Source of the DNA: Deltaproteobacteria bacterium
GTDB taxonomy: Bacteria; Desulfobacterota; Binatia; UTPRO1
Length of the DNA stretch: 58,238 nt
Reading direction: 5' to 3'
NCBI GenBank assembly: GCA_020848745.1
Contig: JADLHM010000134.1
Location: 1 to 58,238 of the forward strand
Under the pieces are notes generated by a model. The model made no database searches, had not been told where the DNA came from, and worked only from the letters and a program-made list of their open reading frames with translations. Position numbers and translations under genes: made by a program. Shown here piece after piece: positions 8,694 to 58,238 of the stretch; the stretch's first letter is position 1, and each line of letters begins with the position of its first letter.

Positions 8694-8705
8694 AGAAGCG
8701 GCCCC

Positions 8706-9131
8706 ATGCCTACACGCGCTTCGACGTTTCGCATCGGTGAGGTGGCGACCATCCTCGGCGCCAGCGCGGACACCGTCCGCCGGCTCGCCGACACCGGGAA
8801 GCTCCGCACCAGGCGCACCGCCGCGGGCCACCGCGTCGTCGCCGGCGCCGAGCTCGCGCGCTTCCTCGTGACCAACCTCGGCGCACCCGAAGCCGACGTC
8901 ATCGTCGCCCGCTCGGCGCGCAACCGCTTCCCGGGGATCGTCACGCGCGTCGTCAAGGACAAGGTGGCCGCCCAGGTGGAGATCCACGCCGGCCCGCATC
9001 GCATCGTCTCGCTGATGACGCGCGAGGCCGCGGACGAGCTCGGGCTCGCGCCCGGCGTGCGGGCGGTCGCCGCCGTCAAGGCCACCAACGTCGTCATCGA
9101 GCTTCCCGGCTCCCGGTCGAAAAACACATGA
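8706..9131 (+). CDS. HTH-TOBE molybdate-responsive regulator or molybdate-binding protein
   Basis: The 141-residue protein joins an N-terminal excisionase/MerR-like helix-turn-helix (RIGEVATILGASADTVRRLADTGKL, about residues 8-33) to a C-terminal TOBE/Mop domain (about residues 70-136: ARNRFPGIVTRVVKDKVAAQVEI...). TOBE domains bind molybdate or tungstate oxyanions. The gene starts a cluster with modABC, so it probably senses molybdate and controls the operon. This HTH-Mop arrangement occurs in several deltaproteobacterial and actinobacterial mod loci. Its stop overlaps the start of the porin gene (ATGA). Confidence 0.82.
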   Translation: MPTRASTFRIGEVATILGASADTVRRLADTGKLRTRRTAAGHRVVAGAELARFLVTNLGAPEADVIVARSARNRFPGIVTRVVKDKVAAQVEIHAGPHRIVSLMTREAADELGLAPGVRAVAAVKATNVVIELPGSRSKNT

Positions 9132-43286: not shown

Positions 43287-43359
43287 AACGAGCACACGAA
43301 CGCGCGTGCCGCATGCCCCGACGCGCGGCGCGCCCCAGATCGAAACGGAGTTCCTCGAC

Positions 43360-46215
43360 ATGGCCAAGAGTTCCCGCGGCAAGAGCAAGACGAAGAGCAC
43401 GAAGCGGCCCGCGAAGAAGGTCGTCGCGAAGCGCGCGGCCGTGAAGACGCGCGCCGGGGCGAGGTCGAAGGCCGGGAAGGCCGCGAGTGCCGGGCGCGGA
43501 AAGAAATACGTCTACGCGTTCGGGGGCGGCCGCGCCGACGGCAAGGCCGAGATGAAGAACCTCCTCGGCGGCAAGGGCGCGAACCTCGCCGAGATGGCGG
43601 GCATGGGTCTGCCGGTGCCCCCGGGCTTCACGATCTCGACCGACGTCTGCGCCTACTACTACGACAACCGCCGCGCCTACCCGGCGGAGTTGAAGAAGCA
43701 GGTCGCGGAGCACCTCGCGCGTGTCGAGAGTCTGGTCGGCCGGAAGTTCGGCGATGCAACCAAGCCGCTCCTGGTTTCGGTGCGCTCGGGCGCGCGCGCG
43801 TCGATGCCGGGCATGATGGACACGGTGCTCAACCTCGGCCTCAACGACGAAACCGTCCGGGGCCTGATCACGGGTTCGAACAACGAGCGCTTCGCCTGGG
43901 ACTCGTACCGCCGCTTCGTGCAGATGTACGGCGACGTCGTCCTCGGACTCAAGCCCGAGGACAAGCTCGAAGCCGATCCCTTCGAGGTCGTGCTCGAGCA
44001 CAAGAAGCACGCGCGCGGCGTGAAGCTGGACACCGAGCTCACCGCCGACGACCTCCGCGAGCTCGTCCACGAGTTCAAGGCACTCATCAAGCGCAAGCTC
44101 GGCGTCGACTTCCCGAGCGACCCGCACGCCCAGCTGTGGGGCGCGATCGGCGCCGTGTTCGGCTCGTGGCAGAACGCCCGCGCCATCACCTACCGGAAGC
44201 TCTACGGCATCCCCGACGAATGGGGCACGGCCGTGAACGTCCAGGCGATGGTGTTCGGCAACCTCGGCGACGACTGCGCGACCGGCGTCGGCTTCTCGCG
44301 CGACCCCGCGACCGGCGAGCGCCAGTTCTACGGCGACTTCCTGGTGAACGCGCAGGGCGAGGACGTCGTGGCCGGCATCCGGACCCCGCAGCCGCTCAGC
44401 AGGAAGGCCGCGATCGACGACGCGCGGGCGCAGGGCATCGCCGAGGGCGACCGCTTGCCGTCGCTCGAGGAGGTCATGCCCGGCCTCTACAAGCAGCTCA
44501 CGCAGATCGCCGCGCGGCTCGAAAAGCACTACCGGGACATGCAGGACATCGAGTTCACGATCGAGGGCGGCAAGCTCTACATGCTGCAGACGCGGAACGG
44601 AAAGCGCACCGCGCACGCCGCGATCAAGATCGCGGTCGACATGGTGAAGGAGAAGCTGATCGACCGCGACACCGCGCTCATGCGCGTCGAGGCGGGCTCG
44701 ATCGACCAGCTCCTGCACCCCGGCCTCGATCCCCGGGCGGAGAAGCGGCTCATCGCCAAGGGCGTCGCCGCCTCCCCGGGCGCCGCCGCCGGCGAGGTCG
44801 TCTTCAGCGCCGACGACGCCGAGGCCGCGGCCGGCGAAGGCAAGACGGTGATCCTGGTGCGCGTCGAGACGTCGCCCGAGGACATCCACGGCATGAACGT
44901 CGCCGAGGGCATCCTGACCGCGCGCGGCGGCAAGGCGTCGCATGCGGCGGTCGTCGCGCGCGGCATGGGCAAGACCTGCGTCGCTGGCTGCAGCGACCTC
45001 GAGATCCACTACGAGGGCGAGTACTTCCTCGCCAGGGACGGCGTGCGCGTCGGCCGCGGCGATTGGATCACCCTCGACGGCTCGACCGGCGAGGTCTTCC
45101 TCGGGAAGGTCGCGACCGTGCGCCCCGAGGGCGAGACCGGCGACTTCGCGACCCTCATGGGCTGGGCCGACAAGACCCGGACGCTCAAGGTGCGCACCAA
45201 CGCCGACACGCCGAAGGACGCGAAGGTCGCCCGCCAGTTCGGCGCCGAAGGCATCGGCCTCTGCCGTACCGAGCACATGTTCTTCGACGCCGAGCGCATC
45301 GACGTGGTGCGCGAGATGATCCTCGCGACCGACCTCGCCGGCCGCGAGCGCGCGCTCCAGAAGCTCCTGCCGATACAACGCGGCGACTTCGAGGCGATCT
45401 TCCGCGAGATGCACGGGCTCCCGGTGACGATCCGGCTGCTCGACCCGCCGCTCCACGAGTTCCTGCCGCAGACCGATGCCGACACCGACGAGCTCGCCGC
45501 CAAGATCGGCGTCGACCCGGCCAAGATGCGGGCGCGCCGCGAGCAGCTGCACGAGATCAACCCGATGCTCGGCATGCGCGGGTGCCGGCTTGGCATCGTG
45601 TATCCCGAGATCTACCTCATGCAGGTGCGCGCCATCATGGAGGCGGCCTGCACGGTCGCCCGCGACGGCGTCAAGGTGGTCCCGGAGATCATGATCCCGC
45701 TCATCGGCCATGTGAACGAGCTCGCCCGGCTCCGCAGGGAGGCAAATGATCTCTGCCAGGCGGTCATCAAAACGGCCGGCCAGAAGGTCGCGTACACGAT
45801 CGGCACCATGATCGAGGTGCCGCGCGCCGCGCTCACCGCCGACGAGGTCGCCCGCGAGGCCGAGTTCTTCTCGTTCGGCACCAACGACCTGACCCAGATG
45901 GGCTTCGGCCTCTCGCGCGACGACGCCGCCATGTTCCTCCCGCAGTACGTCGACAGCGGCATCCTCCCGGTCGACCCGTTCGCGAGCCTCGACCAGACCG
46001 GCATCGGTCAGCTGATGGAGATCGCCGTCCGCAAGGGCCGGAGCGTCCGCGCCAACTTGAAGATCGGGATCTGCGGCGAGCACGGCGGCGACCCGAGCTC
46101 GGTCGACTTCTGCCACCGCACCGGGCTCGACTACGTCTCGTGCTCGCCCTATCGCGTGCCGGTCGCGCGCCTCGCGGCCGCGCAGGCGGCGCTCGCGAGC
46201 AAGAAGAAGAAATGA
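43360..46215 (+). CDS. ppdK: Pyruvate, phosphate dikinase with a basic N-terminal extension
   Basis: The 951-residue enzyme has the ATP-binding domain (NLLGGKGANLAEMAGMGLPVPPGF; SVRSGARASMPGMMDTVLNLG) and the phosphohistidine domain (TARGGKASHAAVVARGMGKTCVAG). The PEP/pyruvate barrel follows (EGIGLCRTEHMFF, GTNDLTQMGFGLSRDD, CGEHGGDPSSV). It interconverts pyruvate, ATP and phosphate with PEP, AMP and diphosphate. Before the usual KYVYAFGGG start lies a Lys/Arg/Ala/Ser-rich tail of about 47 residues, similar to histone H1-like tails. The ATG at 43360 is used; one 54 bases upstream is also open. Its stop overlaps aroE by four bases. Confidence 0.95.
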   Translation: MAKSSRGKSKTKSTKRPAKKVVAKRAAVKTRAGARSKAGKAASAGRGKKYVYAFGGGRADGKAEMKNLLGGKGANLAEMAGMGLPVPPGFTISTDVCAYYYDNRRAYPAELKKQVAEHLARVESLVGRKFGDATKPLLVSVRSGARASMPGMMDTVLNLGLNDETVRGLITGSNNERFAWDSYRRFVQMYGDVVLGLKPEDKLEADPFEVVLEHKKHARGVKLDTELTADDLRELVHEFKALIKRKLGVDFPSDPHAQLWGAIGAVFGSWQNARAITYRKLYGIPDEWGTAVNVQAMVFGNLGDDCATGVGFSRDPATGERQFYGDFLVNAQGEDVVAGIRTPQPLSRKAAIDDARAQGIAEGDRLPSLEEVMPGLYKQLTQIAARLEKHYRDMQDIEFTIEGGKLYMLQTRNGKRTAHAAIKIAVDMVKEKLIDRDTALMRVEAGSIDQLLHPGLDPRAEKRLIAKGVAASPGAAAGEVVFSADDAEAAAGEGKTVILVRVETSPEDIHGMNVAEGILTARGGKASHAAVVARGMGKTCVAGCSDLEIHYEGEYFLARDGVRVGRGDWITLDGSTGEVFLGKVATVRPEGETGDFATLMGWADKTRTLKVRTNADTPKDAKVARQFGAEGIGLCRTEHMFFDAERIDVVREMILATDLAGRERALQKLLPIQRGDFEAIFREMHGLPVTIRLLDPPLHEFLPQTDADTDELAAKIGVDPAKMRARREQLHEINPMLGMRGCRLGIVYPEIYLMQVRAIMEAACTVARDGVKVVPEIMIPLIGHVNELARLRREANDLCQAVIKTAGQKVAYTIGTMIEVPRAALTADEVAREAEFFSFGTNDLTQMGFGLSRDDAAMFLPQYVDSGILPVDPFASLDQTGIGQLMEIAVRKGRSVRANLKIGICGEHGGDPSSVDFCHRTGLDYVSCSPYRVPVARLAAAQAALASKKKK

Positions 46216-47084
46216 GCGGAGCGGGTCGACGGGGCTCGACGGCGGGCGTGCGTGGCACGACGCGCGTTTACGGCATCCTCGGCGACCCGGTCGCGCACAG
46301 CCTCTCGCCGGCCATGCAGAACGCGGCCTTCGCCGCCGCCGCCATCGACGGCGTCTACGTCCCCTTCCCGGTTGCGCGCGACGACCTGGCGGCCACCGTG
46401 GGTGGCCTCTTCGCCGCCGGCGTCGCGGGGCTGAACGTGACGGTCCCGCACAAGGAGGCCGCCGCCCGCCTCTGCGTCGCCCTTCGTCCGCGTGCGCGCG
46501 CCTGCGGCGCCGCCAACACGCTGATCCGTACGGCGCGCGGTTGGGTCGGCGACAACACCGACGGCGCGGGACTCCTGGCGTCGCTCGCCGAGCGCCGCTT
46601 CGACCCGCGCGGCAAGAACGTGCTCCTGATCGGCGCCGGAGGCTCGGCGCGGAGCGTCGCGCACGCGCTCACGCGCGCCGGGACCCGCCTCCTGATCGTC
46701 GCCAATCGCACACCGCAGCGCGCCGCCGACCTGGTCGCGACGCTCCGCCGGCGCGATGCCTACGCCGCCGACCTCCGCGTGCTCGCGAACCCGGAGGTGC
46801 TCGGCCGTCTGGATCTCCTCGTCGACTGCACGTCGCTAGGCCTCGGCTCCGGCGCGCCGCCGGCGATCCGCTTCGCCGACACCCGCCGCGACGTGCTGTG
46901 CTGCGACCTCACGTACGGGAAGACGTCGCGCTTCCTCGCCGCAGCCCGCCACGCCGGTCGGCGCGCCGTCGACGGCAGCGGCATGCTGCTGCACCAGGGG
47001 GCCCTCGCCTTCACCCTCTGGACCGGAAGGCCGGCGCCGGTCGGCATGATGCGGCGGGCGCTCCGCCGCGCGTCGCGTCGGTAG
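46212..47084 (+). CDS. aroE: Shikimate dehydrogenase
   Basis: The 290-residue protein has the substrate-binding blocks GDPVAHSLSPAMQNAAF and NVTVPHKEAA (catalytic Lys), then GDNTDGAGLL. The NADP-binding GAGGSARSVAHAL and a C-terminal GSGMLLHQGALAFTLWTG complete the fold. It reduces 3-dehydroshikimate to shikimate. The start overlaps the ppdK stop (ATGA). The first 17 residues are a non-conserved Gly/Arg/Ser tail. Confidence 0.94.
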   Translation: MSGAGRRGSTAGVRGTTRVYGILGDPVAHSLSPAMQNAAFAAAAIDGVYVPFPVARDDLAATVGGLFAAGVAGLNVTVPHKEAAARLCVALRPRARACGAANTLIRTARGWVGDNTDGAGLLASLAERRFDPRGKNVLLIGAGGSARSVAHALTRAGTRLLIVANRTPQRAADLVATLRRRDAYAADLRVLANPEVLGRLDLLVDCTSLGLGSGAPPAIRFADTRRDVLCCDLTYGKTSRFLAAARHAGRRAVDGSGMLLHQGALAFTLWTGRPAPVGMMRRALRRASRR

Positions 47085-47226
47085 CTCCACGGGACCCGGC
47101 CTTCTTTCGCGGCCGTGCGACGACTCCGTCCCAAAGATTCTCGACGCTGCGCAGCACGCCGCGAACATGCTCGGCAATCTCCCGGCATGCTTCTTGTTGC
47201 AGTGTGTCGTCCAGGAGGGATCGATC

Positions 47227-47538
47227 ATGACAACCCACAAGAAGACGCTGATCGGTCGCGTCCAAGAACAGGTCGAGAAGAGCGCCACAGCCGCCGAGGA
47301 GATCCACAAGGCGATCGCCGACCTTCCGCTGAAGATGCTCGAAGGGAGCCGGATGCTGCGGAAACCGGCCAAGCGGATGAGACGGGCGCAGGATCGCGCC
47401 ATCGGCGCGCTGTACGAAATGATCCGCAAGGTGACGCACACGGTCGGGGAGTTCGCTTCGGAGCGGTTGGCAGCGACCAGGCGGGCGGCGGCGCACGCGG
47501 AGCGGGTCGTCAAGTCGGACCACGCGCACGCCGCCTGA
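47227..47538 (+). CDS. Small helical phasin-like protein
   Basis: The 103-residue protein is almost entirely predicted helix, with heptad-like spacing (VQEQVEKSATAAEEIHKAI, MIRKVTHTVGEFASERLAATRRAAAHAERVV). It has no membrane segment, resembling phasin or apolipoprotein-like small proteins that coat granules. A strong AGGAGGG lies seven to eight bases before the ATG at 47227, which decides the start over an upstream ATG at 47167. No polyhydroxyalkanoate gene is nearby, so the function is unassigned. Confidence 0.6.
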   Translation: MTTHKKTLIGRVQEQVEKSATAAEEIHKAIADLPLKMLEGSRMLRKPAKRMRRAQDRAIGALYEMIRKVTHTVGEFASERLAATRRAAAHAERVVKSDHAHAA

Positions 47539-47681
47539 GTGCTCCGGAGCCCTACAACGCCGCTCGCCGCCGGCGCGATCGCGCCGAGCGGACGAGCGGC
47601 GTCGAGTCTCAGCGCACGGCGCGTGCGCTGTCGCCGGGCGCGATCCCCAACCCGCTATTCGGACTCTTGCGGTCACCCCGG

Positions 47682-47695
47682 GGTTACATGTAACC
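47682..47695. promoter_or_regulatory. Palindrome GGTTACATGTAACC before mazE, probable autoregulatory operator
   Basis: This perfect 14-bp palindrome lies nine bases before the mazE start. Type II toxin-antitoxin operons are normally repressed by the antitoxin at such a site. The region from 47539 to 47681 shows no gene. Confidence 0.6.
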
Positions 47696-47704
47696 AGGAA
47701 TCGT

Positions 47705-47950
47705 ATGCCCACGACATCGAGACGCCCTTCGCGAACATCGAAGTCCGCCACTTCGCGCGACAAGGTGCAAGCGCACCGCAGACGTCTGCGGGCGCAGGGT
47801 CTTCGACCCATCCAGATTTGGGTACCTGACGTGCGGTCGCCCAAGTTCGCCGCCCAAGCATCGCGCCAGTCACGCCTCGTCGCCGCCAGTTCGCACGCAG
47901 CCCAGGATCAAGCCTTCATCGATGCCGTATCGACCGGATCCAACGAGTGA
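47705..47950 (+). CDS. MazE-like antitoxin (DUF3018-type)
   Basis: The 81-residue protein matches the antitoxin family with the pattern VQAHRRRLRAQGLRPIQIWVPDVRSPKFAAQASRQSRLVA followed by AAQDQAFIDAVS. The basic N-terminus probably binds DNA and the C-terminal part neutralises the toxin. Its stop overlaps the start of the toxin gene (GTGA), the usual coupling for an antitoxin-toxin pair. Confidence 0.82.
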   Translation: MPTTSRRPSRTSKSATSRDKVQAHRRRLRAQGLRPIQIWVPDVRSPKFAAQASRQSRLVAASSHAAQDQAFIDAVSTGSNE

Positions 47951-48276
47951 ACCGCGGAGAGATCTGGACTGCCGCCGGTGGCATGGATTACGCCGGAAAG
48001 CCGCGTCCCGTCGTCGTCGTCCAAGACGATCGATTCGGCGGAACCAACTCCATCACAATCTGCGCCTTCACGAGTGATCCGACCGACGCCCCCCTGTTTC
48101 GTATTGCCGTCGAGCCGAGCGAAACCAACGGCCTGAAGGCACCGTCGCGGCTCATGGTGGACAAGATCACCACGATGTCGAAGCACAAGCTCGCGACACG
48201 GGTCGGCAGGCTTGCAGACGACGACGTGCTCCGACTGAATCGTGCGGTGATGATCTTTCTCGGTCTCGCCGGCTGA
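47947..48276 (+). CDS. PemK/MazF-family mRNA interferase toxin
   Basis: The 109-residue protein has the MazF start RGEIWTAAGG...GKPRPVVVVQDD (catalytic Arg), the strand NSITICAFTSDP and the core SRLMVDKITTMSKHKL with the conserved Asp-Lys-Ile. It ends with the dimer helix. It would cleave mRNA at short sequence motifs. It starts with GTG overlapping the antitoxin gene. It appears intact. Confidence 0.87.
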   Translation: MNRGEIWTAAGGMDYAGKPRPVVVVQDDRFGGTNSITICAFTSDPTDAPLFRIAVEPSETNGLKAPSRLMVDKITTMSKHKLATRVGRLADDDVLRLNRAVMIFLGLAG

Positions 48277-48296
48277 GACGACTCTCGTCTAGCTAG

Positions 48297-48713
48297 ATGC
48301 CGGCTCGCTTCTTGGCAGACAAGAGCGCCCTGGCGCGGCTACCGCATACCGGCGTCGACTAGCGCCTGTCGCCGCTGCTCCTCGCGGGGGATGTCGCCGG
48401 CTACGGCATCATCGAGCTCGAGCTGCTGTTCAGCGCGCGCAGCCATCGCGACTTCGTCCAGATCCAGACCGATCGGCACGCACTCCCGGTCGTCCACATG
48501 GAGCAGGCGGACTTCGACCGAGCCATCGGGATGATGGAACGGCTCGCGCGCCAGGGCAAGCATCGCGCCGCGAGCATCCCGGATCTGCTGACCGCTGCCG
48601 TAGCCGAGCGCGCCGGTCTCGTCGTGCTCCACCGTGATCGCGACTTCGACGTCATTGCTTCGGTGACGAAGCAACCCGTCGAGGGGATCGTGCCAGCCGG
48701 CACGGTACCCTGA
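48297..48713 (+). pseudogene. VapC-like PIN toxin gene interrupted by an amber stop
   Basis: The frame starts MPARFLADKSALARL with the first PIN-domain Asp, then meets TAG at 48360-48362 (codon 22). It continues open for 116 codons that match a VapC: GYGIIELELLFSARS, MEQADFDRAIGMMERLA, RAASIPDLLTAAVAERAGLVVLHRDRDFDVIA. All catalytic acids are present in the continuous reading, so the single stop is probably the inactivating change. No antitoxin partner precedes it; mazF ends 21 bp upstream. A shorter product from a downstream start would lack the first catalytic Asp. Confidence 0.75.
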
Positions 48714-48768
48714 CCAGTTGATAGGGATCTTCAACCGATCTTAGCCGATCATCGAAGCGGATTGTCGC

Positions 48769-48789
48769 CCGTAGCACGCCGTGCTACGG
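48769..48789. promoter_or_regulatory. Inverted repeat before the phd/vapC pair, probable operator
   Basis: CCGTAGCAC and GTGCTACGG form perfect 9-bp arms around a 3-bp centre and end seven bases before the antitoxin ATG. Phd/YefM antitoxins typically bind such GTAGCAC-type repeats to repress their own operon. Confidence 0.6.
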
Positions 48790-48796
48790 TCTTTCC

Positions 48797-49051
48797 ATGG
48801 CGACAGCAATCACCCAGCGAGAGCTTCGCAATGACAGCGGAAACATCATGCGCCGCCTCGACCAGGGTGAAACTTTCATCGTGACCCGCAACGGCACGCC
48901 TGTGGGAGAACTCACCCCGCACCGGCGTCATCGCTTCGTCGCGGCGGACGCCGTGGTCGCGATGTTCCGCAATGCTCCCGGCATCGATGTCGCCCGTTTC
49001 CGCGCGGATCTCGACGCCGTCGTTACACAGGGCATCGATCCTCGTGGCTGA
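48797..49051 (+). CDS. Phd/YefM-family antitoxin
   Basis: The 84-residue protein has the Phd N-terminus TAITQRELRNDSGNIMRRLDQGETFIVTRNGTPVGELTPH, which dimerises and binds DNA. Its C-terminal part AVVAMFRNAPGIDVARFRADLDAVV should bind the PIN toxin. Its stop overlaps the vapC start by eight bases. A near-palindromic operator lies directly upstream. Confidence 0.87.
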   Translation: MATAITQRELRNDSGNIMRRLDQGETFIVTRNGTPVGELTPHRRHRFVAADAVVAMFRNAPGIDVARFRADLDAVVTQGIDPRG

Positions 49052-49454
49052 GACTCGCCGCGCTCGCGGAATTCTCGACACCTCGGTCGTCATCGATCTG
49101 GAGCGCCTCGACCCGGAACAGTTGCCGCTCGAGATCGCCATCAGTGCGATCACCATGGCCGAACTTGCCGCAGGCCCCCATGCCACAGCGGACCCCGAAG
49201 AGAGATCGCGCCGTCAGGACCGGCTTCAGCGTGCGGAGGCGGTGTTCGATCCGCTGCCGTTCGACTCCGAGGCATCACGCGCCTACGGGCGCGTCTATTC
49301 GGCCGTCGTCGCCGCCGGACGCAAGGCGCGTGTCGCAAGAGCGCTCGATCTCCTGATTGCCGCCACGGCGTGTTCGGCGGGACTGCCGCTCTACACCCGC
49401 AATCCGGAGGACTTTCAGGCGCTGGCCGACCTCGTCGAAGTCATCCGCGTCTAA
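49044..49454 (+). CDS. VapC-type PIN-domain ribonuclease toxin
   Basis: The 136-residue protein has the PIN acids in GILDTSVVIDLERL (first Asp), TMAELAAG (Glu) and ARALDLLIAATACSAG (Asp), and ends LYTRNPEDFQALADLVEVI. It starts with GTG inside the end of the antitoxin gene. It appears intact, in contrast to the amber-interrupted vapC 330 bp upstream. VapC toxins cleave tRNA or rRNA. Confidence 0.87.
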   Translation: MAETRRARGILDTSVVIDLERLDPEQLPLEIAISAITMAELAAGPHATADPEERSRRQDRLQRAEAVFDPLPFDSEASRAYGRVYSAVVAAGRKARVARALDLLIAATACSAGLPLYTRNPEDFQALADLVEVIRV

Positions 49455-49484
49455 ACCGCGGACGGACTGTGCTGGATCGAAGGG

Positions 49485-50057
49485 TCATGCTGGGTGCACC
49501 TGCCGTGCCTTCCACGCCAGCACTCTCGTCACGAGGGCATTGAGATAGCCGCGGTCCTTCCGTGTGAGTTTGGCACGCAGCGCGTTGGCGTCGCCGGTCT
49601 TCAGGAACTCCTCGACAGCACTCAATTCGGCGGCTGAAGGCTGGATGGTCACGCGCGCTTGTTTGCCGGGGAGCGTCGTGTGGATCGCCGTGAACTCGTC
49701 TGCTGTCCGTCCCATCTGCTCCAGTACGGCGTGGACCTTTGGCAGGCCCAGAAGCTTGGGGCGCTTGCGGGGTAGTGGCGGCTCGGATCGTCCGATCCTT
49801 GCCAAGTAGCCCGCGACCCTCGTGACGAGACCATTGACGGCAGTTCGGTTCGTCGTGCCGATCCGCTTCATCAGCACGCCCACGTTGCCGTCCTCGACGA
49901 ATTGCTTCACCGCGTCGATCTCGTTCGGAGTGAAGCCGCACTGCTTCCGCAGCTCGCGTACGACGGCGCCGTTGCAACCAAGCAGGGTCTTCTCTGCCAC
50001 GCCGACTCGTAGAGCATCGGCCGCGAGCTGAGGCCAGAGCCCGTCAGGGTGAATCAC
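49485..50057 (-). CDS. Unrecognised protein with two related helical repeats
   Basis: The 190-residue protein is not recognised. It contains two similar segments of about 45 residues: EIDAVKQFVEDGNVGVLMKR...NGLVTRVAGYLARIG (about residues 46-89) and ELSAVEEFLKTGDANALRAK...LNALVTRVLAWKARQ (about 144-186). They share the pattern AVxxFxxxGxxxxLxxxxxxxxxxxxNxLVTRV. There is no signal peptide or membrane segment; both units are probably helical hairpins. It lies in the accessory island between a Phd/VapC pair and the RT-Cas1 module, on the opposite strand to both. Confidence 0.6.
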   Translation of the reverse strand: MIHPDGLWPQLAADALRVGVAEKTLLGCNGAVVRELRKQCGFTPNEIDAVKQFVEDGNVGVLMKRIGTTNRTAVNGLVTRVAGYLARIGRSEPPLPRKRPKLLGLPKVHAVLEQMGRTADEFTAIHTTLPGKQARVTIQPSAAELSAVEEFLKTGDANALRAKLTRKDRGYLNALVTRVLAWKARQVHPA

Positions 50058-50117
50058 ATCCGAACCGGTTGAGACGCCCTGCGTTGAGCGTCTCGAGGTC
50101 GTGACTGCCTCGCGCCT

Positions 50118-50213
50118 CTATGGCGTGCCGACCGCGGGCATGAGCAGCTCGCTGAAGCGCCCGAAGTCTTTGCGGTCGAAGGTGTAGACCCGCCGGATAT
50201 CGTGGGCCAGCAT
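50118..50213 (-). pseudogene. C-terminal remnant of a PIN-domain toxin
   Basis: On the minus strand the frame reads LAHDIRRVYTFDRKDFGRFSELLMP and stops at 50118. This matches the VYTFDRxDF end of VapC-type proteins. Upstream in this frame the similarity is lost by about 50250, just before the RT-Cas1 gene, and the catalytic N-terminal part is absent. It probably marks a boundary where the RT-Cas1 segment joined older sequence. Confidence 0.42.
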
Positions 50214-50330
50214 GACGACGATGAGAGAAGGAGCGCGCGACAAGTCCCCGTTGCCGCAGCGCTCGTGAACTGTGCGTGAGCCGCGCGAACCGCACGTGAG
50301 CTGCGACGGACGGCGCGGTCTCGGCTACGA

Positions 50331-50356
50331 ATCCGGCAGCAACGGAGCTGCCGGAT
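50331..50356 (+). promoter_or_regulatory. Hairpin covering the ribosome site and start of the RT-Cas1 gene
   Basis: ATCCGGCAGC (50331-50340) and GCTGCCGGAT (50347-50356) are perfect 10-base arms with a 6-base loop. The only plausible ribosome site, GGAG at 50344-50347, lies in the loop and first stem base, and the right arm includes the first two bases of the ATG at 50355. Folding of the mRNA would hide the start, so translation may be low or conditional. Confidence 0.6.
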
Positions 50357-52715
50357 GGTGGTCGAGAATCCCCCAACGATCGACGCCGAACTGAGCGCGG
50401 ACTTCCTCCACGAGGTGTCCGACATCGGACGCTTGCGGGTGGGATGGTCGCATACGCGGGCGGCTCGTGGCGCGCCGGGGGTCGATCGGGTGACCGTGGC
50501 CCGGATCATCTCCCAGGCGGAGCAGGTGCTCGCGAGCCTCCAGCGACAGCTCCGCAGCGGGCGCTATCGGCCGCCGCCGCTCCGGCGCACGTTCATGCCC
50601 AAGGCCGACGGCACCTTCAGGGTGGTCGGCATCCCGACCGTCACCGATCGGATCGTGCAGGGTGCCGCGACGCTGGCGCTGCACGATCGCCTCGGGCCGA
50701 AGTTCTCCGATGCGAGCTTCGCCTATCGCCCACTGCTCGGCCCGAAGCGAGCGGCCGAGCAGCTCGCGACGTTGTTGCGACCGGGATCCTGGGCCGTCAT
50801 CGCCGACGTCGAACGCTTCTTCGACGCCGTCGATCACGGGCGTCTCCTCGCGCTCGTGTCGGAGGCGGGGGTCGACGCGGCGGGCGTGAAACTGATCGAG
50901 GCCTGGTTGCGGGCGCCGGTCGAGGATGGGCAGTTTCGTCTGCAGCCCGTGAAGGGTCTGCCCCAGGGCGGGCCGATCTCGCCGATCCTGACCAATCTCT
51001 ATCTCACCGGATTCGATCGCGCGCTCGAGCAGCGTGGGGACCCGCACGTGCGGTTCGCCGACGACTTCGTGATCGTCGCGCGCTCCGGGGAGCATGCGCG
51101 GGAGATCCTGACGTTCATCACCGATTGGCTCCGCCGCGAGCGCATGCTGGCGATCAAGGCAGCCAAGACCCTGTTTACTCCGGTCGAGCAGGGCTTCGTC
51201 TTCGTCGGGTTGCTCTTCACTGCGACGACGCGGACGTTGCCGGCGGAGAAGGCCGAGGGCTTCAAGACCCGGGTCGCGACCCTACTCACCGACCCGCCGA
51301 CGCTCGAGGTTGCCGAGGTCGTGCGGCGGCACAACGATCTGGTGCGTGGTTGGCGCAACTACTACGGGGCGGTGACGCCGGAGCTGGACGCTCAGCTGCA
51401 CGCATTGGAGCGCTGGCGGCATGCGCGCGCCACGGCGTTCTGGAAGGCGCGGAACGTCGACGAGCGGCTCGGCAGGGCCGCGCTCGAGTCGTTGAGCGTC
51501 GATCCCGAGCGGACGGCCGAGCCCATAGTCGAGTACGCGCGGTGGCCGGAGGCGCCCGACCCGCCACATGCGATCCCCGGCGACGATCCCGATCCGTGGC
51601 AGCTCGTGCACTGGCCCCGGGGGGCGCGACCGGCACGTGTCTTCTCGACGAGGTCGGCGCTCCGGAACCATGCGATCGGCGAGCGGCAACGGCCGCTCCT
51701 GACCGCGGATCGCGTGCTGCACGTGCCGACCCACGGCTCGTACCTCACGCGGCGGAAGGGCGTGCTCGTCGTCCGGCGGAAGAAGCAGCCGGTCTTCGAA
51801 TGCGCGCGCCGCGAGGTCGGCCTCGTCACGGTCAGCGGTCAGGGCGTGGCGCTCTCCAGTACCGCGCTTCTCGAGCTCGCGCAGCGCCGTGTCAGTGTCA
51901 TCCTGACGTCCGCCGGGGGTGCACCGGTGGCGCGCGTGGTGCCCGTGCGGTCGGAGCGGCGCGTCCGGTTGCTGGAGGCGCAGCTTCACGCCCGGAGCGA
52001 CGTGCGTGGGGCGACCCTGGCGCGCGCGATCGTCGCCGCCAAGATCCGGAATCAGCGCGCGCTGCTGCTCTACCACGCCAAGTACCGCCGGCGGCCAGCC
52101 GCCGTCATCCGCGAGCTGGAGCGCGCGGCGGCGGCGATCGGCGAGTGCGTCGTCGCGGTCCATGGTCTGCTCGGGGCGACGCTCGCCGATACGCGGCGCC
52201 CGCTCTTCCTGATCGAAGCCCGGGCGGCGGGTCACTACTGGCGCGCGATCGACCGGCTGGTGCCTCCGGACTGGGAGTTTCCGGGTCGGCGTGGACGGGG
52301 AGCCCACGATCCAATGAATGCGCTCCTGAACTACGGCTACGCGCTGCTCGCCAATCGGGTGTGGTGGGCGATCGAGCGCCAGGGGCTGCATCCGTATCTC
52401 GGGTTCCTTCATACCAGTCGCCGCGCGCGTCCTGGTCTGGTGTTCGACCTGATGGAGGAGTTCCGGCAGCCGCTGGTCGATCGCGCGATCCTCGGTTTGA
52501 TCGGGCGCGGGAGCCGCGTGGTGATGCGGCAACACGGCCGCCTCGCGATGCGAACTCTCCGCCGCGTCGACCGTGCCATCGAGCGCGGGCTCGAACGGCG
52601 GCTGCGACGCCGAGCCGGGAACACGTTGGCCGGCGAGATCGTCGGGAGCGCCCGCGCGATCCGCCGAACGCTGATGGAGGGTGGCTCCTATCGTGGCCAC
52701 CGGATGGCATGGTGA
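50355..52715 (+). CDS. Reverse transcriptase-Cas1 fusion protein
   Basis: The 786-residue protein has a group II intron-like reverse transcriptase (about residues 40-350) fused to Cas1 (about 440-775). RT motifs: RVVGIPTVTDRIVQ, SFAYRP, the first catalytic Asp in WAVIADVERFFDAVD (D151), GLPQGGPISPILTNLYL, and F234-A-D-D237. The Cas1 beta-sandwich starts near LTADRVLHVPTHGSYL, and the catalytic acids and His are E621, H686 and D698 (ARAAGHYWRAI; GFLHTSRRARPGLVFDLMEEFRQPLVD). RT-Cas1 proteins acquire CRISPR spacers from RNA or DNA, usually with type III systems. No Cas6 domain is fused here. A Cas2-like gene overlaps the end. All catalytic residues are intact. Confidence 0.95.
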   Translation: MVVENPPTIDAELSADFLHEVSDIGRLRVGWSHTRAARGAPGVDRVTVARIISQAEQVLASLQRQLRSGRYRPPPLRRTFMPKADGTFRVVGIPTVTDRIVQGAATLALHDRLGPKFSDASFAYRPLLGPKRAAEQLATLLRPGSWAVIADVERFFDAVDHGRLLALVSEAGVDAAGVKLIEAWLRAPVEDGQFRLQPVKGLPQGGPISPILTNLYLTGFDRALEQRGDPHVRFADDFVIVARSGEHAREILTFITDWLRRERMLAIKAAKTLFTPVEQGFVFVGLLFTATTRTLPAEKAEGFKTRVATLLTDPPTLEVAEVVRRHNDLVRGWRNYYGAVTPELDAQLHALERWRHARATAFWKARNVDERLGRAALESLSVDPERTAEPIVEYARWPEAPDPPHAIPGDDPDPWQLVHWPRGARPARVFSTRSALRNHAIGERQRPLLTADRVLHVPTHGSYLTRRKGVLVVRRKKQPVFECARREVGLVTVSGQGVALSSTALLELAQRRVSVILTSAGGAPVARVVPVRSERRVRLLEAQLHARSDVRGATLARAIVAAKIRNQRALLLYHAKYRRRPAAVIRELERAAAAIGECVVAVHGLLGATLADTRRPLFLIEARAAGHYWRAIDRLVPPDWEFPGRRGRGAHDPMNALLNYGYALLANRVWWAIERQGLHPYLGFLHTSRRARPGLVFDLMEEFRQPLVDRAILGLIGRGSRVVMRQHGRLAMRTLRRVDRAIERGLERRLRRRAGNTLAGEIVGSARAIRRTLMEGGSYRGHRMAW

Positions 52716-53062
52716 CGCGCCTCATCATCTACGACGTTGCCGACGCCAAGCTGCGGGCGTGGTGCGAGGCGCTGCTCGAATCCCGCGGCGCCGTCCGCGT
52801 GTTTCGGAACGTGATGAGGTTGAGTTGCTCGCCCGAGGTCTGGGCGGGCGCACGGAGGATGATGCGGCGGCGGCTCGCGTCGTACCCACACCGCGTGCTG
52901 GCCGTCGAGACGACGCCGCGTCAGCTCGCGCAAACCTGCTGGCTCATCGGACCAGTACGAACGGAGGAGGCCGAAGATGCTCTTACACGTCATTGCGGCG
53001 TATTCCGCCGACATTCCCGAGTTGCAGGGGAGGCAAGGGGTCATCGTCCGCCGCGCCCGTGA
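52709..53062 (+). CDS. Divergent Cas2-like protein
   Basis: The 117-residue frame starts MVTRLIIYDVADAKLRAWCEALL. The early Y-D pair (Y8-D9) after a hydrophobic strand and the following helix fit the Cas2 ferredoxin fold, and strands follow at AVRVFRNVMRLSCS and HRVLAVETTP. The usual aromatic/Ser segment (QYSVF) is replaced by VFRNVM. The start overlaps the Cas1 stop (ATG 52709 or GTG 52712), as expected of a Cas1-Cas2 pair. The last 37 residues overlap the next gene and are probably run-on sequence. Cas2 identity is inferred from position and fold-like pattern. Confidence 0.72.
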   Translation: MVTRLIIYDVADAKLRAWCEALLESRGAVRVFRNVMRLSCSPEVWAGARRMMRRRLASYPHRVLAVETTPRQLAQTCWLIGPVRTEEAEDALTRHCGVFRRHSRVAGEARGHRPPRP

Positions 53063-53696
53063 CGGCATCGTCACCGCGGTCGAGTGCGCGATCGTGACCG
53101 AACAGGGTCGGTCGTTCGCGCGGCCAAAGCAGGTCGTACCCGAGGGGCTGCCAGCCCCCGCGTTTACCCTACGGTTCGCGGTGTTCCGCCGTGAGATTGC
53201 CACGCACGGTGTCGGGATCGTCGTCCAACCCGACGATCGCAAGACCAACCTCGATCCTGAGCAGCGGCTGATGGCGCCGCGCTATGCCGGCGACCAGCGC
53301 ATCTACTACGAGTTCCAGCGCGGCGAGGTGATGTTCGTGTCGCCGAAAGGCGACGTCGAGGTCCGATTGGTCGCGGTGGACTCGCAGACCGGGGAGGTCG
53401 GTACGCGGACCGTCGCCCATTTCCACACGCGCTACTTCGGGCTGGTTGCTCGCTGTGAGGCCGAGCTGCGTGGCACCGGGCAGCTGTTTCCCCCGCCCTC
53501 TCGGACGAGCGCCAAACGCTTTGCCGTGCCCAAAGGCGAGGTCAATCTCCGGTTCGGCCGCGAGCCGCGCGAGCTGCCGGACGACGAGATCGAAGGCGAC
53601 GGCCGGGCCGAACATTTCGACCCCTCCGGCGAAGCGGCCGCGCCATCGCCGGCATTCGCCGGCGATCCGGACGGCAACTTCAGCGGGCCGTCGTAG
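52977..53696 (+). CDS. Unrecognised third gene of the RT-Cas1 module
   Basis: The 239-residue protein is not recognised. A strong GGAGGAGG lies about six bases before the ATG, inside the end of the Cas2-like frame, so it is cotranscribed with the RT-Cas1 genes. The sequence is beta-rich in the first two thirds (LLHVIAAYSADIPELQGRQGVIV, FTLRFAVFRREIATHGVGIVV, YYEFQRGEVMFVSPKGDVEVRLVAVDSQTGEVGTRTV). It ends in an acidic, Pro/Gly/Ala-rich tail from about residue 195. There is no signal peptide, no nuclease motif I can name and no Cys cluster. Its place directly after cas2 suggests a link to adaptation. Confidence 0.7.
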   Translation: MLLHVIAAYSADIPELQGRQGVIVRRARDGIVTAVECAIVTEQGRSFARPKQVVPEGLPAPAFTLRFAVFRREIATHGVGIVVQPDDRKTNLDPEQRLMAPRYAGDQRIYYEFQRGEVMFVSPKGDVEVRLVAVDSQTGEVGTRTVAHFHTRYFGLVARCEAELRGTGQLFPPPSRTSAKRFAVPKGEVNLRFGREPRELPDDEIEGDGRAEHFDPSGEAAAPSPAFAGDPDGNFSGPS

Positions 53697-53838
53697 ATCG
53701 ACGGCGCCCACATTTCCTGAGCGGACTTCTCCGGGCAGAGTACGATGCTCGTTGAGAAGTTGCTCGACACGGCGCTCGTATTTCTTCCATCTCAAGCGAT
53801 AGTCCAGCGGGAATCGTCGTGGTGGGACGACGGCGTAC

Positions 53839-54171
53839 ATGTCGTCGGGCTCGACCGACACCGTCTTCAAGATCACCGACGACGGTACGGTTTCAGTGTT
53901 CATGGACGCGACCGGGGATGGCGCGGGCCACGCTCTCGACCGTCCGGGATCGATCGACGCGGATGTGAACGGCAACGTCTACGTCGCGGGGGTCGTTTCC
54001 AACAACGCCTTCAAGATCACGCCGAGCGGGGTGATCACGCAGCTGATCGACCAGACTGGCGACGGCAAGCCGAACCACACGCTGAGCGGGCCACCGGGAA
54101 TCGCGGTCGACCCGCAGGGCAACGTCTTCGTGACGAGCCTCCACAACCGCGCGTTCAAGATCTCCCCCTGA
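53839..54171 (+). pseudogene. Fragment of an NHL/SMP-30-like beta-propeller protein
   Basis: The 110-residue frame carries two blade repeats, TDTVFKITDDGTVSVFMDATGDG...GSIDADVNGNVYVAG and NNAFKITPSGVITQLIDQTGDG...GIAVDPQGNVFVTS. It ends after the start of a third blade. Complete proteins of this kind have five or more blades and a signal peptide; both are missing. It is probably the 3' piece of a secreted propeller gene cut by whatever brought in the sequence to its left. Confidence 0.65.
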
Positions 54172-54543
54172 TCGCGCGCCGAGAGCTTCGTCGGCCGAGC
54201 GGCGCCCGCCGATCTGCGCATGAGCCCGCGGCCTCGAACGGGCCGCCACTACCGAAATTTTCCGATCGCTATGGCAAACGGCTGTAACGAACGCGAACGT
54301 CCAAGTTTGGTGACTATGTAGCCACCCGGTGAGCGAGCAGGCAGCAAAGACGCTCGCGATGCGGACTGTGTGACTCCGGCGATGGCGTTCTCATCACGTG
54401 TCGCCGGGCCAGCGCGGCTGCTCAATCAGCCGAAGGCGTATGCCTCGGTACGGGACCGTCCCTACCAGGCGATGATCGAGCTCCTGTCGGCCGAGTCATT
54501 GCAGCGACGGCGGCGGCCTGAATGGGAGCTCCGTCGTGACGTA
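54172..54543. other. 372-bp stretch without a supported gene
   Basis: Short open frames occur but none has a family match, ribosome site or consistent codon bias. I looked here for CRISPR repeats (23-50 bp direct repeats with regular spacing) and saw none. Confidence 0.6.
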
Positions 54544-55695
54544 TCAGGTTCCGATCGCCTTCAGGTAGGCCGGGAGGTCGAGCGACCAACGCTCCTTGCC
54601 GATGACCGTTTCCGTGGTTCGGCTGATGAGCACCTGGCGTCGCGCGCCGATGAGTGCCGCGACTTTGGCGAGCGCCGTCATGTGTGCGGGTGACGGCGCG
54701 GAGGTGAGCTTGATCTCGATGAGCTCGCGCATGCCGTCCGCATCGATCACCAGATCGACTTCCAGGCCGTCGTGGGCTCGGAAGAAATGGGCACTGAGCG
54801 ACTCTCCTCGTGCCTGTCTCGCGGCGAGGATCTGCTCGATGACCCACCCCTCGAAGCTTGCGCCCACCCATGGTTGGCTCGGGAGATCGCCGTCGTTGGC
54901 GAATCCCAGGAGCGCGTGCAGCAGGCCGCTGTCTCGCCAATACAGCTTGGGTGCCTTGACCAGCCGCTTCTTGAGATTGGCTTCGAGGGGAGGAAGCAGC
55001 CGTACGAGATACGCACCCTCGAGGTGGTCGAGGTACGATCGCACGGTGTGGTACGACAGCCCGAGACTTTGCCCCAGAGCCGAGGCGTTGAGCGTGCCGC
55101 CATGCACCGCGGCCGTCATGCGAAACAGACGCTCGGTCAGCGCCGGCTTGGACGGCAGTCCCCAATTCGGGAGGTCACGGCTCGCGAGCAGACGGAGGTA
55201 GCTCTCGTGCCAGGCAGGGTAGGTGCTGCGGCCGAGGACGCCGGCGTCGGGATAGCCACCCAGACGCCAGAGGCGGTCTGCCTTGTCCGCCCCGACCTCT
55301 CCGAGGTGGAACGGTGTTAATTCCACCAGTGCGAGCCGTCCGGCGAGCGATTCGGAAACCTGGGTCATCAACGCCGGCGAGACGGATCCGAGCAGCAGGA
55401 ACCGCCCCATCGCCCGTCGCCGCTCATCGATGGCCCCACGCAGGCGCGGGAACACCTCCGGCCATTCCTGGGCCTCGTCCAAGATGACGAGCTTCGAGCC
55501 CGAAACCAGCTTGTCCCAGGACAGATCGAGTCGGGTGCGATCGGCGGGACGCTCGAGATCGAAGTAGTGGCCACCGATCGCGCGCGCGAGCGTGGTCTTT
55601 CCGGATTGTCGTGCACCCAGGAGGGCAACCGCCGGAAATTCACCGAGACGTCGCCGCACCAATCGCAAGGAGCTTCGTCGGGTCAGTTGCGACAT
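54544..55695 (-). CDS. ATP-binding protein with AAA_14 and DUF4143 domains
   Basis: The 383-residue protein has a P-loop GARQSGKTTLARAIGGHYFDL (about residue 27), Walker B KLVILDEAQEWPEVF, and sensor-like FLLLGSVSPAL. A winged-helix segment (LGQSLGLSYHTVRSYLDHLEGAYLVRLLPP) precedes the C-terminal DUF4143 domain, where VDLVIDADGMRELIEIKLT resembles the D...ExK core of PD-(D/E)xK nucleases. Such ATPases are common in accessory regions, and the function is unsettled; some are suggested toxins or defence factors. A plausible AT-rich promoter ends a few bases before its ATG, so the transcript may be nearly leaderless. Confidence 0.87.
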   Translation of the reverse strand: MSQLTRRSSLRLVRRRLGEFPAVALLGARQSGKTTLARAIGGHYFDLERPADRTRLDLSWDKLVSGSKLVILDEAQEWPEVFPRLRGAIDERRRAMGRFLLLGSVSPALMTQVSESLAGRLALVELTPFHLGEVGADKADRLWRLGGYPDAGVLGRSTYPAWHESYLRLLASRDLPNWGLPSKPALTERLFRMTAAVHGGTLNASALGQSLGLSYHTVRSYLDHLEGAYLVRLLPPLEANLKKRLVKAPKLYWRDSGLLHALLGFANDGDLPSQPWVGASFEGWVIEQILAARQARGESLSAHFFRAHDGLEVDLVIDADGMRELIEIKLTSAPSPAHMTALAKVAALIGARRQVLISRTTETVIGKERWSLDLPAYLKAIGT

Positions 55696-55701
55696 CAGAT
55701 G

Positions 55702-55730
55702 AAAATAAGAAATACGTTTCTATTTTGCAA
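55702..55730 (-). promoter_or_regulatory. AT-rich promoter candidate of the DUF4143 ATPase gene
   Basis: On the minus strand TTGCAA (55730-55725) and TATTTT (55707-55702) are 17 bases apart in a stretch of about 40 bases that is strikingly AT-rich for this genome. The -10 box ends only seven bases before the ATG. Confidence 0.5.
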
Positions 55731-56005
55731 TCCCGGAAAAGATTGCGACGCACCTGGCCGCGGAGCACGGGCTCCAGGCGTCGGTCCAAGACCCGGTCAT
55801 CCGGCACGACTACGTGTACCAGCACAATCAAACCGACCTGGAATTATTCCTGCGCACCCGCGCCGCGCGCATCGGATTCGAGGTCCGTGTGGAGGATTCC
55901 ACGCTGGTGTTTGCGCCGGCCCCGCCTCTCGGCGGCCCCGTCGAACGGAGCGTGACACTCGTGAACCCCCGGACCTTCGCCGCCGACGTTGATAAGCATC
56001 TTTAG
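55709..56005 (+). pseudogene. Fragment of a phage gpD / contractile injection system baseplate-hub protein
   Basis: The frame is open from 55709 to TAG at 56003-56005. It reads EKIATHLAAEHGLQASV...HDYVYQHNQTDLELFLRTRAARIGFEVRVEDSTLVFAPA. This is the core pattern of late-control gene D/VgrG-like hub proteins ('QxNQTDLEFLxxRAxxIGYE'). Only about 65 of the usual 350 or more residues remain, there is no start codon in context, and the tail (VERSVTLVNPRTFAADVDKHL) is less typical. It is a relic of a phage tail or extracellular injection system cluster. Confidence 0.65.
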
Positions 56006-56051
56006 CTGCGTGTTCGCCGTGCCTTCGCCACAGGCGAGGCGACATATTATA

Positions 56052-56566
56052 TGCCTCCCTCCACAGCGCCACCCCACCGATCAAGCCCGCCACGTTCGAG
56101 ACGATCGTCACGTGCGTCGGCAGCTCGAACTCGAGGTGCTTGGCGTTGCCGCCGCCGATGTAGATCCGGCGCGGGTTCCACACCGGGTCGATCTGACGGA
56201 TGACGCGCGCGACGCGCTTGTTCCACTTGCGCTTGCCGACATCGTCGAGGGCGCGGGCGGAAACGTACGACTCGTAGGTGTCGCCGTTGCGGAAGGGATG
56301 GTGCGCGAGCTCGAGGTTCGGGACGTAGCGGCCGTCGAGGTAGAGGGCCAGCCCATGCCGGTGCCGAGAGCGATCACCATCTCGACGCCGCGCCCCTCGA
56401 TGACGCCGAAGCCCTGCACGCCGGCGTCGTTCAAGGGCGAACGGGCCGCTTCAAGCGGCGGCCGAGCTCGCACACGATCGGTGAGCGCCGTCCCTTCCAC
56501 GTCGAGGATCATGGCCTTGAGGCCACTGCCGCCGATGTCGATGGCGAGGGTACGCGGCGTCTTCAT
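56052..56566 (-). pseudogene. Broken polyphosphate glucokinase (ROK family) gene
   Basis: It starts MKTPRTLAIDIGGSGLKAMILDVEG at 56566, the phosphate-1 loop of ROK-type glucokinases. After about 40 residues it jumps directly to NDAGVQGFGVIEGRGVEMVIALGTGMG, so about 80 residues of the usual chain are missing. After GTGMG a one-base loss shifts the frame. The rest (LYLDGRYVPNLELAHHPFRNG, then IYIGGGNAKHLEF and VSNVAGLIGGVALWREA) is readable in other frames. It is inactive as written, unless the sequence contains an error. Confidence 0.8.
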
Positions 56567-56630
56567 TGGTTGCGACGTTGACGCACTCGGGCCGCGCGCG
56601 TCAACCCGCGAAAGCTTGTTGGTTTCCGGG

Positions 56631-57239
56631 CTAGCGGACGGCACCCGCCGGCACCGGCGGCGCAGCGAACACGCCGGTCAACGAGAGGTACGCGCTCACC
56701 CCGGCGTCGAAGTCGTACGAGCCGAGCACCTCGATCCGTACCGGCCAGCCGGACGGGCGGAAGGTGAGCCGCGTCCCGAAACCCATGAGGCGAGCCGCCG
56801 CGTCGCTGATGGCGTGATCCTCGTAGACGGTGAGCGAGAAGCGCCGGCCCGCGAAGAGGTCCGAAACGAGCGTCCGCTGCATGACGACCTCCTGTCCGTC
56901 GTCGGCGCGCGCCTGCACCCGCGTGAGGGAAACCAGCGTGCGGCCCTGCGCGCGCGCGACCAGCGCGACCGTCGGGAGCTCGGCGCGCCGGCCGTCCTCG
57001 GGCGGGGTCGGGACCAGCGCCACGAGCGGCCGTAGGCCGACGGGGTTCCGCTTGCAGTGCTCGATCAGCCGCGAGAGCGGGTCGGTGCTCGGAGCGGAAG
57101 GCCGTTCCTCCTCCAAACCGAGCCCGAGGTCGTCGCGACGCTCGAGCAACCAGCGCTCGGGACCGCGCGCGCCGTCCTCCGCCCGCGCCGCCGTCACGGC
57201 GGTGAACAGCAGGAGCACGAGCGCCGGAGCTCGGAGCAT
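56631..57239 (-). CDS. Secreted protein of unknown function
   Basis: The 202-residue protein starts with a clear signal peptide (LRAPALVLLLFTAVTAARAED). The mature part has a charged segment with a single Cys (LIEHCKRNPVG) and then beta-strand-like sequence (RTLVSLTRVQARADDGQEVVMQRTLVSDLF, RLTFRPSGWPVRIEVLGSYDFDAGVSAYLSLTGVF). No family is recognised. The start at 57239 is preferred over 57263 because it places the hydrophobic core directly after MLRAP. It lies 65 bp before the glucokinase pseudogene and is divergent from the pilB-like gene. Confidence 0.65.
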   Translation of the reverse strand: MLRAPALVLLLFTAVTAARAEDGARGPERWLLERRDDLGLGLEEERPSAPSTDPLSRLIEHCKRNPVGLRPLVALVPTPPEDGRRAELPTVALVARAQGRTLVSLTRVQARADDGQEVVMQRTLVSDLFAGRRFSLTVYEDHAISDAAARLMGFGTRLTFRPSGWPVRIEVLGSYDFDAGVSAYLSLTGVFAAPPVPAGAVR

Positions 57240-57514
57240 GCAGCGGTCCGCCTTCCCGACCACTACGCCCGCGCCTGAACCGTAGGCAAGACAATTCTGC
57301 GCGGCGGCCGGGGCTACTCACGGAATCCGACGCGCCTGCCGATATGGCGAGACGAGGCGAGAGGGCGGCGGATGCGCATGCGAGGTCCATGGAGGTCTCG
57401 CATGCGTCGCAACCGCTGCTCGTAGCCGTTGAGCCCGGCGCACGGCGCCCATACGACGACCAGCATGCGACCTTCGAACCGACGCTCCACCCCCGTACAC
57501 GGAGGCTCCGCCGC

Positions 57515-58238
57515 GTGACGACCATGTCCCGTCTCGGCGAGCTCCTGGTGCGGCGCGGCCAGATCGAAGCCGCCCACCTCGAGCGGGCGATGACCGAGCA
57601 GCGGAACCTCGGCGGCGCGCTCGCGAGCCATCTCGTCAAGCTCGGCTTCATCAACGAGGACGCGCTCCTCTCGTATCTCCAGAAGGAATACCGCCTCCCG
57701 GTCGTCGATCCGTCGAACCTCGACATCCCGCCCGAGGTGCTCGGCCTCGTGCCGGCGGCGATGGCGCAGAAGCACCACCTCATCCCGGTGAACCTCGTGC
57801 GGTCGAACCTCACGATCGCGATGGCCGACCCGTCGAACCTGGTCGCCATCAACGAGGTGAAGTTCCTGACCGGCTACGACGTGAAGATCGCCGTCGCCGG
57901 CGCCACCGCGATCCAGCGGGCGCTCGACCGCTACTACGACGCCGCCGCGAACTACGACCAGATGCTGAACGAGCTCGGCGAGAACGGCGACGTCCAGCTG
58001 GTCCAGGGAGAGGAAGAGGTCAGTCTCCAGGACCTCGAGCGCGCCACCGAGGAAGCGCCGGTCGTTCGCCTCGTGAACGCCCTCCTCACCGACGCCATCA
58101 AGAAGCGCGCCAGCGACGTCCACATCGAGCCGTACGAGAAGATGCTGCGCGTGCGCTTCCGCATGGACGGCGTGCTCTACGAGATCATGCAGCCGCCGGT
58201 GAAGCTCAAGAACGCCATCACCTCGCGCGTGAAGGTCA
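57515..58238 (+). CDS. PilB/GspE-type secretion or pilus assembly ATPase (partial)
   Basis: The 241 visible residues hold the N-terminal MshEN-type domain (SRLGELLVRRGQIEAAHLERAMTEQRNLGG...LVKLGFINEDALLSYLQKEYRLPVV) and the start of the secretion ATPase core (ASDVHIEPYEKMLRVRFRMDGVLYEIM). The sequence runs off the right edge before Walker A. The GTG at 57515 lies nine bases after GGAGG, a better spacing than for the ATG at 57524. It would power type IV pilus extension or type II secretion. The 275 bp upstream hold no other gene that I can support. Confidence 0.9.
   Translation, partial: MTTMSRLGELLVRRGQIEAAHLERAMTEQRNLGGALASHLVKLGFINEDALLSYLQKEYRLPVVDPSNLDIPPEVLGLVPAAMAQKHHLIPVNLVRSNLTIAMADPSNLVAINEVKFLTGYDVKIAVAGATAIQRALDRYYDAAANYDQMLNELGENGDVQLVQGEEEVSLQDLERATEEAPVVRLVNALLTDAIKKRASDVHIEPYEKMLRVRFRMDGVLYEIMQPPVKLKNAITSRVKV

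Follow-up and report, generated by a model that had tools for sequence, protein, structure and literature searches.

A reverse transcriptase-Cas1 fusion with a thumb domain and conserved partner genes on a genomic island of a deltaproteobacterium

The stretch of DNA analyzed here (the window) is an entire contig of 58,238 nucleotides (JADLHM010000134.1; contig C134 of genome G000) from the Deltaproteobacteria assembly GCA_020848745.1, a draft of 4.88 Mb that is 99.5% complete. It carries a fusion of a reverse transcriptase (RT) with Cas1, the integrase of CRISPR (clustered regularly interspaced short palindromic repeats) systems, followed by a divergent Cas2 and a third gene, and preceded by a fourth gene on the opposite strand. 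Draft genomes were used throughout, two of which, G147 (89% complete) and G146, belong to the same genus as the host. The only close relative of the RT-Cas1 protein found among 84,980 species, with one genome per species, is encoded on JADYZW010000010.1 from "Deltaproteobacteria SJ588" (which matches contig C10 of G147) and is 66% identical, while the next-best relative is 30% identical; searches of viral contigs, phages, and plasmids for RT-Cas1 returned distant proteins only.

Domains of the RT-Cas1 protein

The fusion protein, of 786 amino acids (aa), is encoded on the forward strand at 50355-52712 (stop codon at 52713-52715); its AlphaFold2 model has a mean predicted local distance difference test (pLDDT) score of 83.8. 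It comprises an RT domain (RVT_1, residues 82-285, 50598-51209; Pfam, 1e-27), a thumb/X (maturase) domain (residues 297-366, 51243-51452), a linker predicted to be disordered (residues 376-443, 51480-51683; pLDDT < 50), and a Cas1 integrase domain (residues 455-786, 51717-52712), all on the forward strand. The Pfam Cas_Cas1 match covers residues 455-719 (5e-65), and the predicted fold follows Cas1 over residues 451-785, the nearest solved Cas1 structure being that of Archaeoglobus fulgidus (4n06; Z 41.9, root-mean-square deviation [rmsd] 2.0, 333 residues, 31% identity). A first-pass annotation of the window, made from the sequence alone, had described an intact RT (ADD motif, D151) fused to an intact Cas1, and both the domains and the catalytic residues are indeed present: D151 and D236-D237 (FADD) in the RT, and E621, H686, and D698 in Cas1. 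Among 74 Cas1 sequences, E621 and H686 are invariant and D698 is found in 72, the other two having gaps at this position; both active sites are intact in the G147 copy as well. By its sequence, the protein is an RT-Cas1, with the RT N-terminal to Cas1 and the active sites intact.

Several lines of evidence show that the thumb has been retained. The Pfam GIIM profile matches residues 303-351 (23.5 bits, cut-off 23). When 102 RTs are aligned, the window RT and that of G147 show NDLVRGWRNYYG, the signature of group II introns, whereas variable linkers replace this region in all other RT-Cas1 fusions of our first searches. A thumb hidden Markov model (HMM), trained on 31 unfused RTs alone and searched without filters, matched the window (independent E-value [i-E] 1.7e-7), G147 (1.5e-8), and 29 of 35 unfused RTs, and matched none of the 63 other RT-Cas1 fusions of the first searches. 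In the AlphaFold model, the thumb consists of three helices (297-312, 319-337, and 342-366; moderate confidence), and residues 16-376 align to the group II intron RT GsI-IIC (6AR1; Z 33.4, rmsd 6.9, 360 residues). Published RT-Cas1 proteins are described as missing the thumb, and those of type III systems have a linker in its place (PMC11014452, PMC8102632); by HMM and Pfam match, alignment, and predicted structure, the window protein does not fit a description in which fingers and palm are joined straight to Cas1. The likeness to the group II intron RT/maturase extends through the thumb/X region, but the window RT scores 258.9 bits with TIGR04416, under the NCBIfam cut-off of 300, is fused to Cas1, and has no group II intron RNA (domain V) nearby (no Rfam match in 47000-56700, E up to 1).

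A weak thumb match (i-E 3e-4) occurs in an RT-Cas1 that was found later, L319 (364-2736; G506:C155), from another class of the same phylum. This protein is 28% identical to the window protein, has YSDN instead of YADD/FADD, and falls with its Cas1 half in the type I-A-like branch described below; neither a cas2 nor an array lies within its 4 kb of sequence.

Phylogeny of the RT and Cas1 halves

In a Cas1 tree of 74 rows, 17 stand-alone Cas1s, drawn from the host's class, Deinococcus gobiensis, and Herpetosiphon, form the sister group (100/99) of the window and G147 proteins, and the 46 other RT-Cas1s form a clade of their own (98/95). Forcing all RT-Cas1s into one clade was 51 log units worse (approximately unbiased [AU] test, p 0.0005), and a position of the Cas1 domain inside the RT-Cas1 Cas1 clade, from which RT-Cas1s of Toro clade 12 (Firmicutes) were left out, is rejected by the same test. 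The neighborhoods of two stand-alone Cas1s were examined (L035 and L169); both contain Cas7 and Cas5a, and L035 additionally contains Cas3 and Cas8a. These are type I-A-like genes, and the branch is here called type I-A-like; the A. fulgidus protein that is the closest structure is likewise a Cas1 of such systems. The Cas1s of these systems are stand-alone proteins accompanied by Cas7 and Cas5a, several of them beside arrays, whereas the window Cas1 is fused to an RT and is without these companions. The L035 Cas1 frame (8014-10302 in G064) is 763 codons long with a Cas1 domain at 456-717 only, and the ~450 residues ahead of it have no Pfam match, so that it may represent a fusion or an overlong start.

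The RT tree (100 rows, thumb columns removed) places the window and G147 proteins as the first branch of the RT-Cas1 clade, with 98/95 support against group II intron RTs. The grouping with RT-Cas1 RTs, a placement that the first-pass annotation had proposed to examine, is thus obtained, but it is only basal and on a long stem, and in a quick tree that included L319 the pair fell in no starred set beyond itself. Two RTs without a Cas1 fusion also fall inside the RT-Cas1 clade (L118 9827-11329 and L050 9692-11335); in L050, a separate Cas1 frame directly follows the RT, perhaps a fusion that was split or frameshifted.

Given the placement in the Cas1 tree and the AU rejection of a single RT-Cas1 clade, the Cas1 half of the window protein has a separate origin, through either an independent fusion or an exchange of Cas1. 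Because the RT lies next to other RT-Cas1 RTs, a Cas1 domain that was replaced has to be considered alongside an independent fusion. An RT-Cas1 with a type I-B Cas1 has already been reported for clade 12 (PMC6753606), and independent Cas1 sources as such are therefore not new. Clade 12 proteins (e.g., from Fusicatenibacter saccharivorans), which we compared by description only, likewise carry a Cas1 of type I stock, but are without a thumb (PMC11014452) and come from another phylum. With the type III proteins (Cas6-RT-Cas1 of Marinomonas mediterranea and RT-Cas1 of Azospirillum; Toro clades 1-14), the window module shares the order of RT, Cas1, and then cas2, as well as the FADD active site, and their RTs are its nearest neighbors in the RT tree; it differs in its Cas1 from another branch, in having no array or effectors, and in two extra conserved genes. 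The first-pass annotation had taken type III loci as the usual setting of RT-Cas1 proteins, a frame that does not suit a protein with a type I-A-like Cas1 and a retained thumb.

Partner genes, genomic island, and arrays

The divergent Cas2 (52709-53062, forward strand) overlaps the RT-Cas1 gene by 7 nt and the third gene by 86 nt. Its score against the NCBIfam cas2 profile is 17.3 bits, under the cut-off of 24.5, but its position, overlap, and conservation support the Cas2 assignment suggested by the sequence: a homologue in G147 is 52% identical, at the same position and with the same 86-nt overlap. The third gene (52977-53696, forward strand) has a ribosome site, GGAGGAGG, at 52963-52970, 6 nt ahead of its ATG, and encodes 239 aa weakly predicted to be all-beta (structure model of low confidence, pLDDT 39.7). 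It is conserved in G147, where it is 59% identical over 117 aa before being cut off by the contig end. As stated in the first-pass annotation, it belongs to no recognized family: searches of Pfam, NCBIfam, and PHROGs gave no family, PADLOC gave a weak match only, and the PDB sequences gave none. No relatives beyond marginal matches were found among 394 other genomes of the phylum, and none in viral contigs or plasmids.

The three-gene module of that annotation is incomplete: it has a fourth gene. The fourth gene (49485-50057, reverse strand; 190 aa) apparently consists of two copies of a ~90-aa unit, and has no confident family in the profile libraries. A homologue lies upstream of the G147 RT-Cas1, where it is likewise divergent (34% over 88 aa, E 1e-9), and the gene occurs in 2 of 145 genomes of the class, namely the two with this RT-Cas1, at a distance of at most 1.5 kb. 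The RT-Cas1, Cas2, and third gene stand in the same order in G147, and the differences between the two copies of these three genes concentrate at third codon positions (0.47-0.49, vs. 0.20-0.39 at the first two positions, with Cas2 showing a weak contrast), indicating that all three are real genes. Both copies of the RT-Cas1 module are under purifying selection, and chance is excluded because the whole gene set is conserved.

The module is carried on a genomic island of ~9.5 kb (47078-56626), delimited by flanks that lie close together, without the island, in two genomes of the same genus: the sequences at 43001-47077 and 56627-58238 are separated by 645 bp in G147:C56 (89% and 88% identity) and by 35 bp in G146:C33. 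The G147 module occupies another genomic site, and its DNA identity is 70%, compared with 88-92% for other regions, which indicates horizontal spread; by sequence, the two copies fit separate horizontal acquisitions in the two genomes. According to profile matches, the island also encodes a PemK/MazF-like toxin (47947-48276, forward), a Phd-like antitoxin (48797-49051, forward), a PIN-domain protein (48972-49454, forward), and an AAA_14-DUF4143 ATPase (54544-55695, reverse), along with a fragment with NHL-type repeats (53839-54171). This remaining content is typical of defense islands.

No CRISPR array is present in the window. A tandem repeat at 3706-3910 (unit of 53 nt containing CTTTCAATCG, 3.9 copies, 91% alike) was considered as an array and rejected, as its units are near-identical and there are no distinct spacers. 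The genome encodes no RAMP (Csm/Cmr) genes and no Cas10, the same Cas10 search being positive in G012 and G015, and the type I-A Cas7/DevR family (PF01905) gave nothing above the cut-off in either G000 or G147 and a strong match in G064. The search for type III effectors proposed in the first-pass annotation thus came back negative, and its observation that arrays and effectors are missing is upheld for the window; for the genome at large it has to be amended, as a type I-G locus is present. This locus is split over two contig ends (L156, G000:C91, 62-9438, and L168, G000:C80, 1-3492), with Cas3g, Cas2g, and Cas4-Cas1g on C91 and an array of at least 60 identical copies of ATTTCCGCGCTCGTCAGAGCGCGGCCCCATTGAAGC running from the end of C91 into the start of C80. 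The repeat is 36 nt long, and the 58 complete spacers (34-42 nt) gave no full-length match in the sequence read, with many short, low-complexity ones among the matches listed. At the orthologous place in G147, which is 91.6% identical over 9.2 kb, a single repeat stands at the end (L167 9744-9779, G147:C14:24744-24779), which we read as a collapsed array; no Cas1 other than the RT-Cas1 was found in that genome.

Possible functions of the module

We favor, at a probability of roughly 0.5, the reading that the genes make up an orphan module for CRISPR adaptation, intact and spread horizontally, which belongs to a separate RT-Cas1 lineage and acts in trans. In its favor are the intact RT and Cas1 residues and the protein-level constraint in both copies, the thumb and predicted fold, the placement of the Cas1 half, the gene order shared with G147, the fourth gene confined to the two genomes with this RT-Cas1, the island, and the absence of both a nearby group II intron RNA and type III effectors. 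The group II intron-type RT with its thumb and the type I-A-like Cas1 would work with the adjacent Cas2, the Cas1-Cas2 integrase core capturing fragments of RNA (or DNA), the thumb-bearing RT turning these into complementary DNA (cDNA), and Cas1 joining the product to a repeat outside the module locus; the third and divergent fourth genes would be conserved partners. Acquisition of RNA spacers by RT-Cas1 proteins is known from other systems (PMC11014452, PMC5513706).

Several observations weigh against this reading, which is weakest where the missing array is concerned. Of the 29 other RT-Cas1 loci flanked by 2.5 kb or more of sequence on both sides, every one lies within 5 kb of an array, which makes the window locus abnormal for an adaptation module. 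The sole array found in the genome is that of the type I-G system, which has its own Cas4-Cas1, and no further array was seen in the 1.72 Mb (35%) of the genome read directly, the other 65% being unread. A GAAAC-triple array pattern applied to six genomes was no more frequent in the host than in the control, with a low sensitivity (24 of 50 RT-Cas1 arrays recovered). The module is intact in G147 although the I-G array there fell to one repeat. To these may be added the weak Cas2 profile match, the long stem (1.22) on which the RT adjoins the other RT-Cas1 RTs, and the omission of clade 12 from the trees. The earlier suggestion of an orphan module serving a distant array accordingly stands for the locus itself, near which arrays and effectors are absent, but no cognate array was found in the 35% of the genome read or by the low-sensitivity pattern; the comparison of neighborhoods that had been proposed returned a conserved gene set in G147 as well as 29 loci that do adjoin arrays.

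The strongest competitor, which we regard as possible though clearly the less probable, is a function apart from arrays, with RT and Cas1 acting in RT-based defense, in the repair of DNA, or in inserting RNA-derived DNA elsewhere, and the third and fourth genes as partners. The absence of an array beside the module speaks for it, as do the persistence of the module in G147 as the sole detected Cas1 beside an I-G array of one repeat, the two conserved genes that CRISPR systems are not known to have, and the island shared with toxin-antitoxin genes; domesticated group II intron-like RTs are known to act in DNA repair (PMC12337344). Retention of both Cas1 and Cas2, with the Cas1 active site intact, instead points to integration into repeats, and arrays were sought by reading in about a third of the genome. 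A more speculative version, which we consider doubtful, is that an RT-Cas1-Cas2 freed from arrays, with its complete group II intron-type RT and two new partner proteins, copies RNA and inserts the cDNA elsewhere in the genome, forming a mobile defense or recording unit of its own.

It is improbable that the module acts in trans on the type I-G array of the same genome, supplying RNA-derived spacers to a type I system. That array is the only one found, but Cas4-Cas1 and Cas2 are already part of the I-G locus, the two Cas1s come from different branches, and the module has been kept in G147 where the I-G array is gone, which argues against dependence on it. A decaying remnant without present function, the degenerate locus of the first-pass annotation, would agree with the missing array and the narrow distribution in two genomes, but is contradicted by constraint: the frames are open, the catalytic residues intact, changes are biased toward third positions, and gene order and overlaps are conserved between copies ~30% apart in DNA. 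An ordinary type III module that has lost its array and effectors, or has them at another place, is unlikely, and the least probable of all: about half of RT-cas loci are without effector genes, the array often being retained (PMC5513706), and the best PADLOC profile is Cas1_IIIb, but the genome has neither RAMP nor Cas10 genes, the Cas1 falls outside the RT-Cas1 clade, and the thumb is kept.

Whether RT-Cas1 fusions arose in a single event or in several is debated. A thumb-bearing RT-Cas1 with a type I-A-like Cas1 provides direct evidence in this debate, showing either a separate fusion or a swap of the Cas1 part. With such a protein one can also test what role an RT-Cas1 may play without an adjacent array, and whether a thumb would make a writer of RNA into spacers more processive, an advantage if transcripts are to be recorded in DNA.

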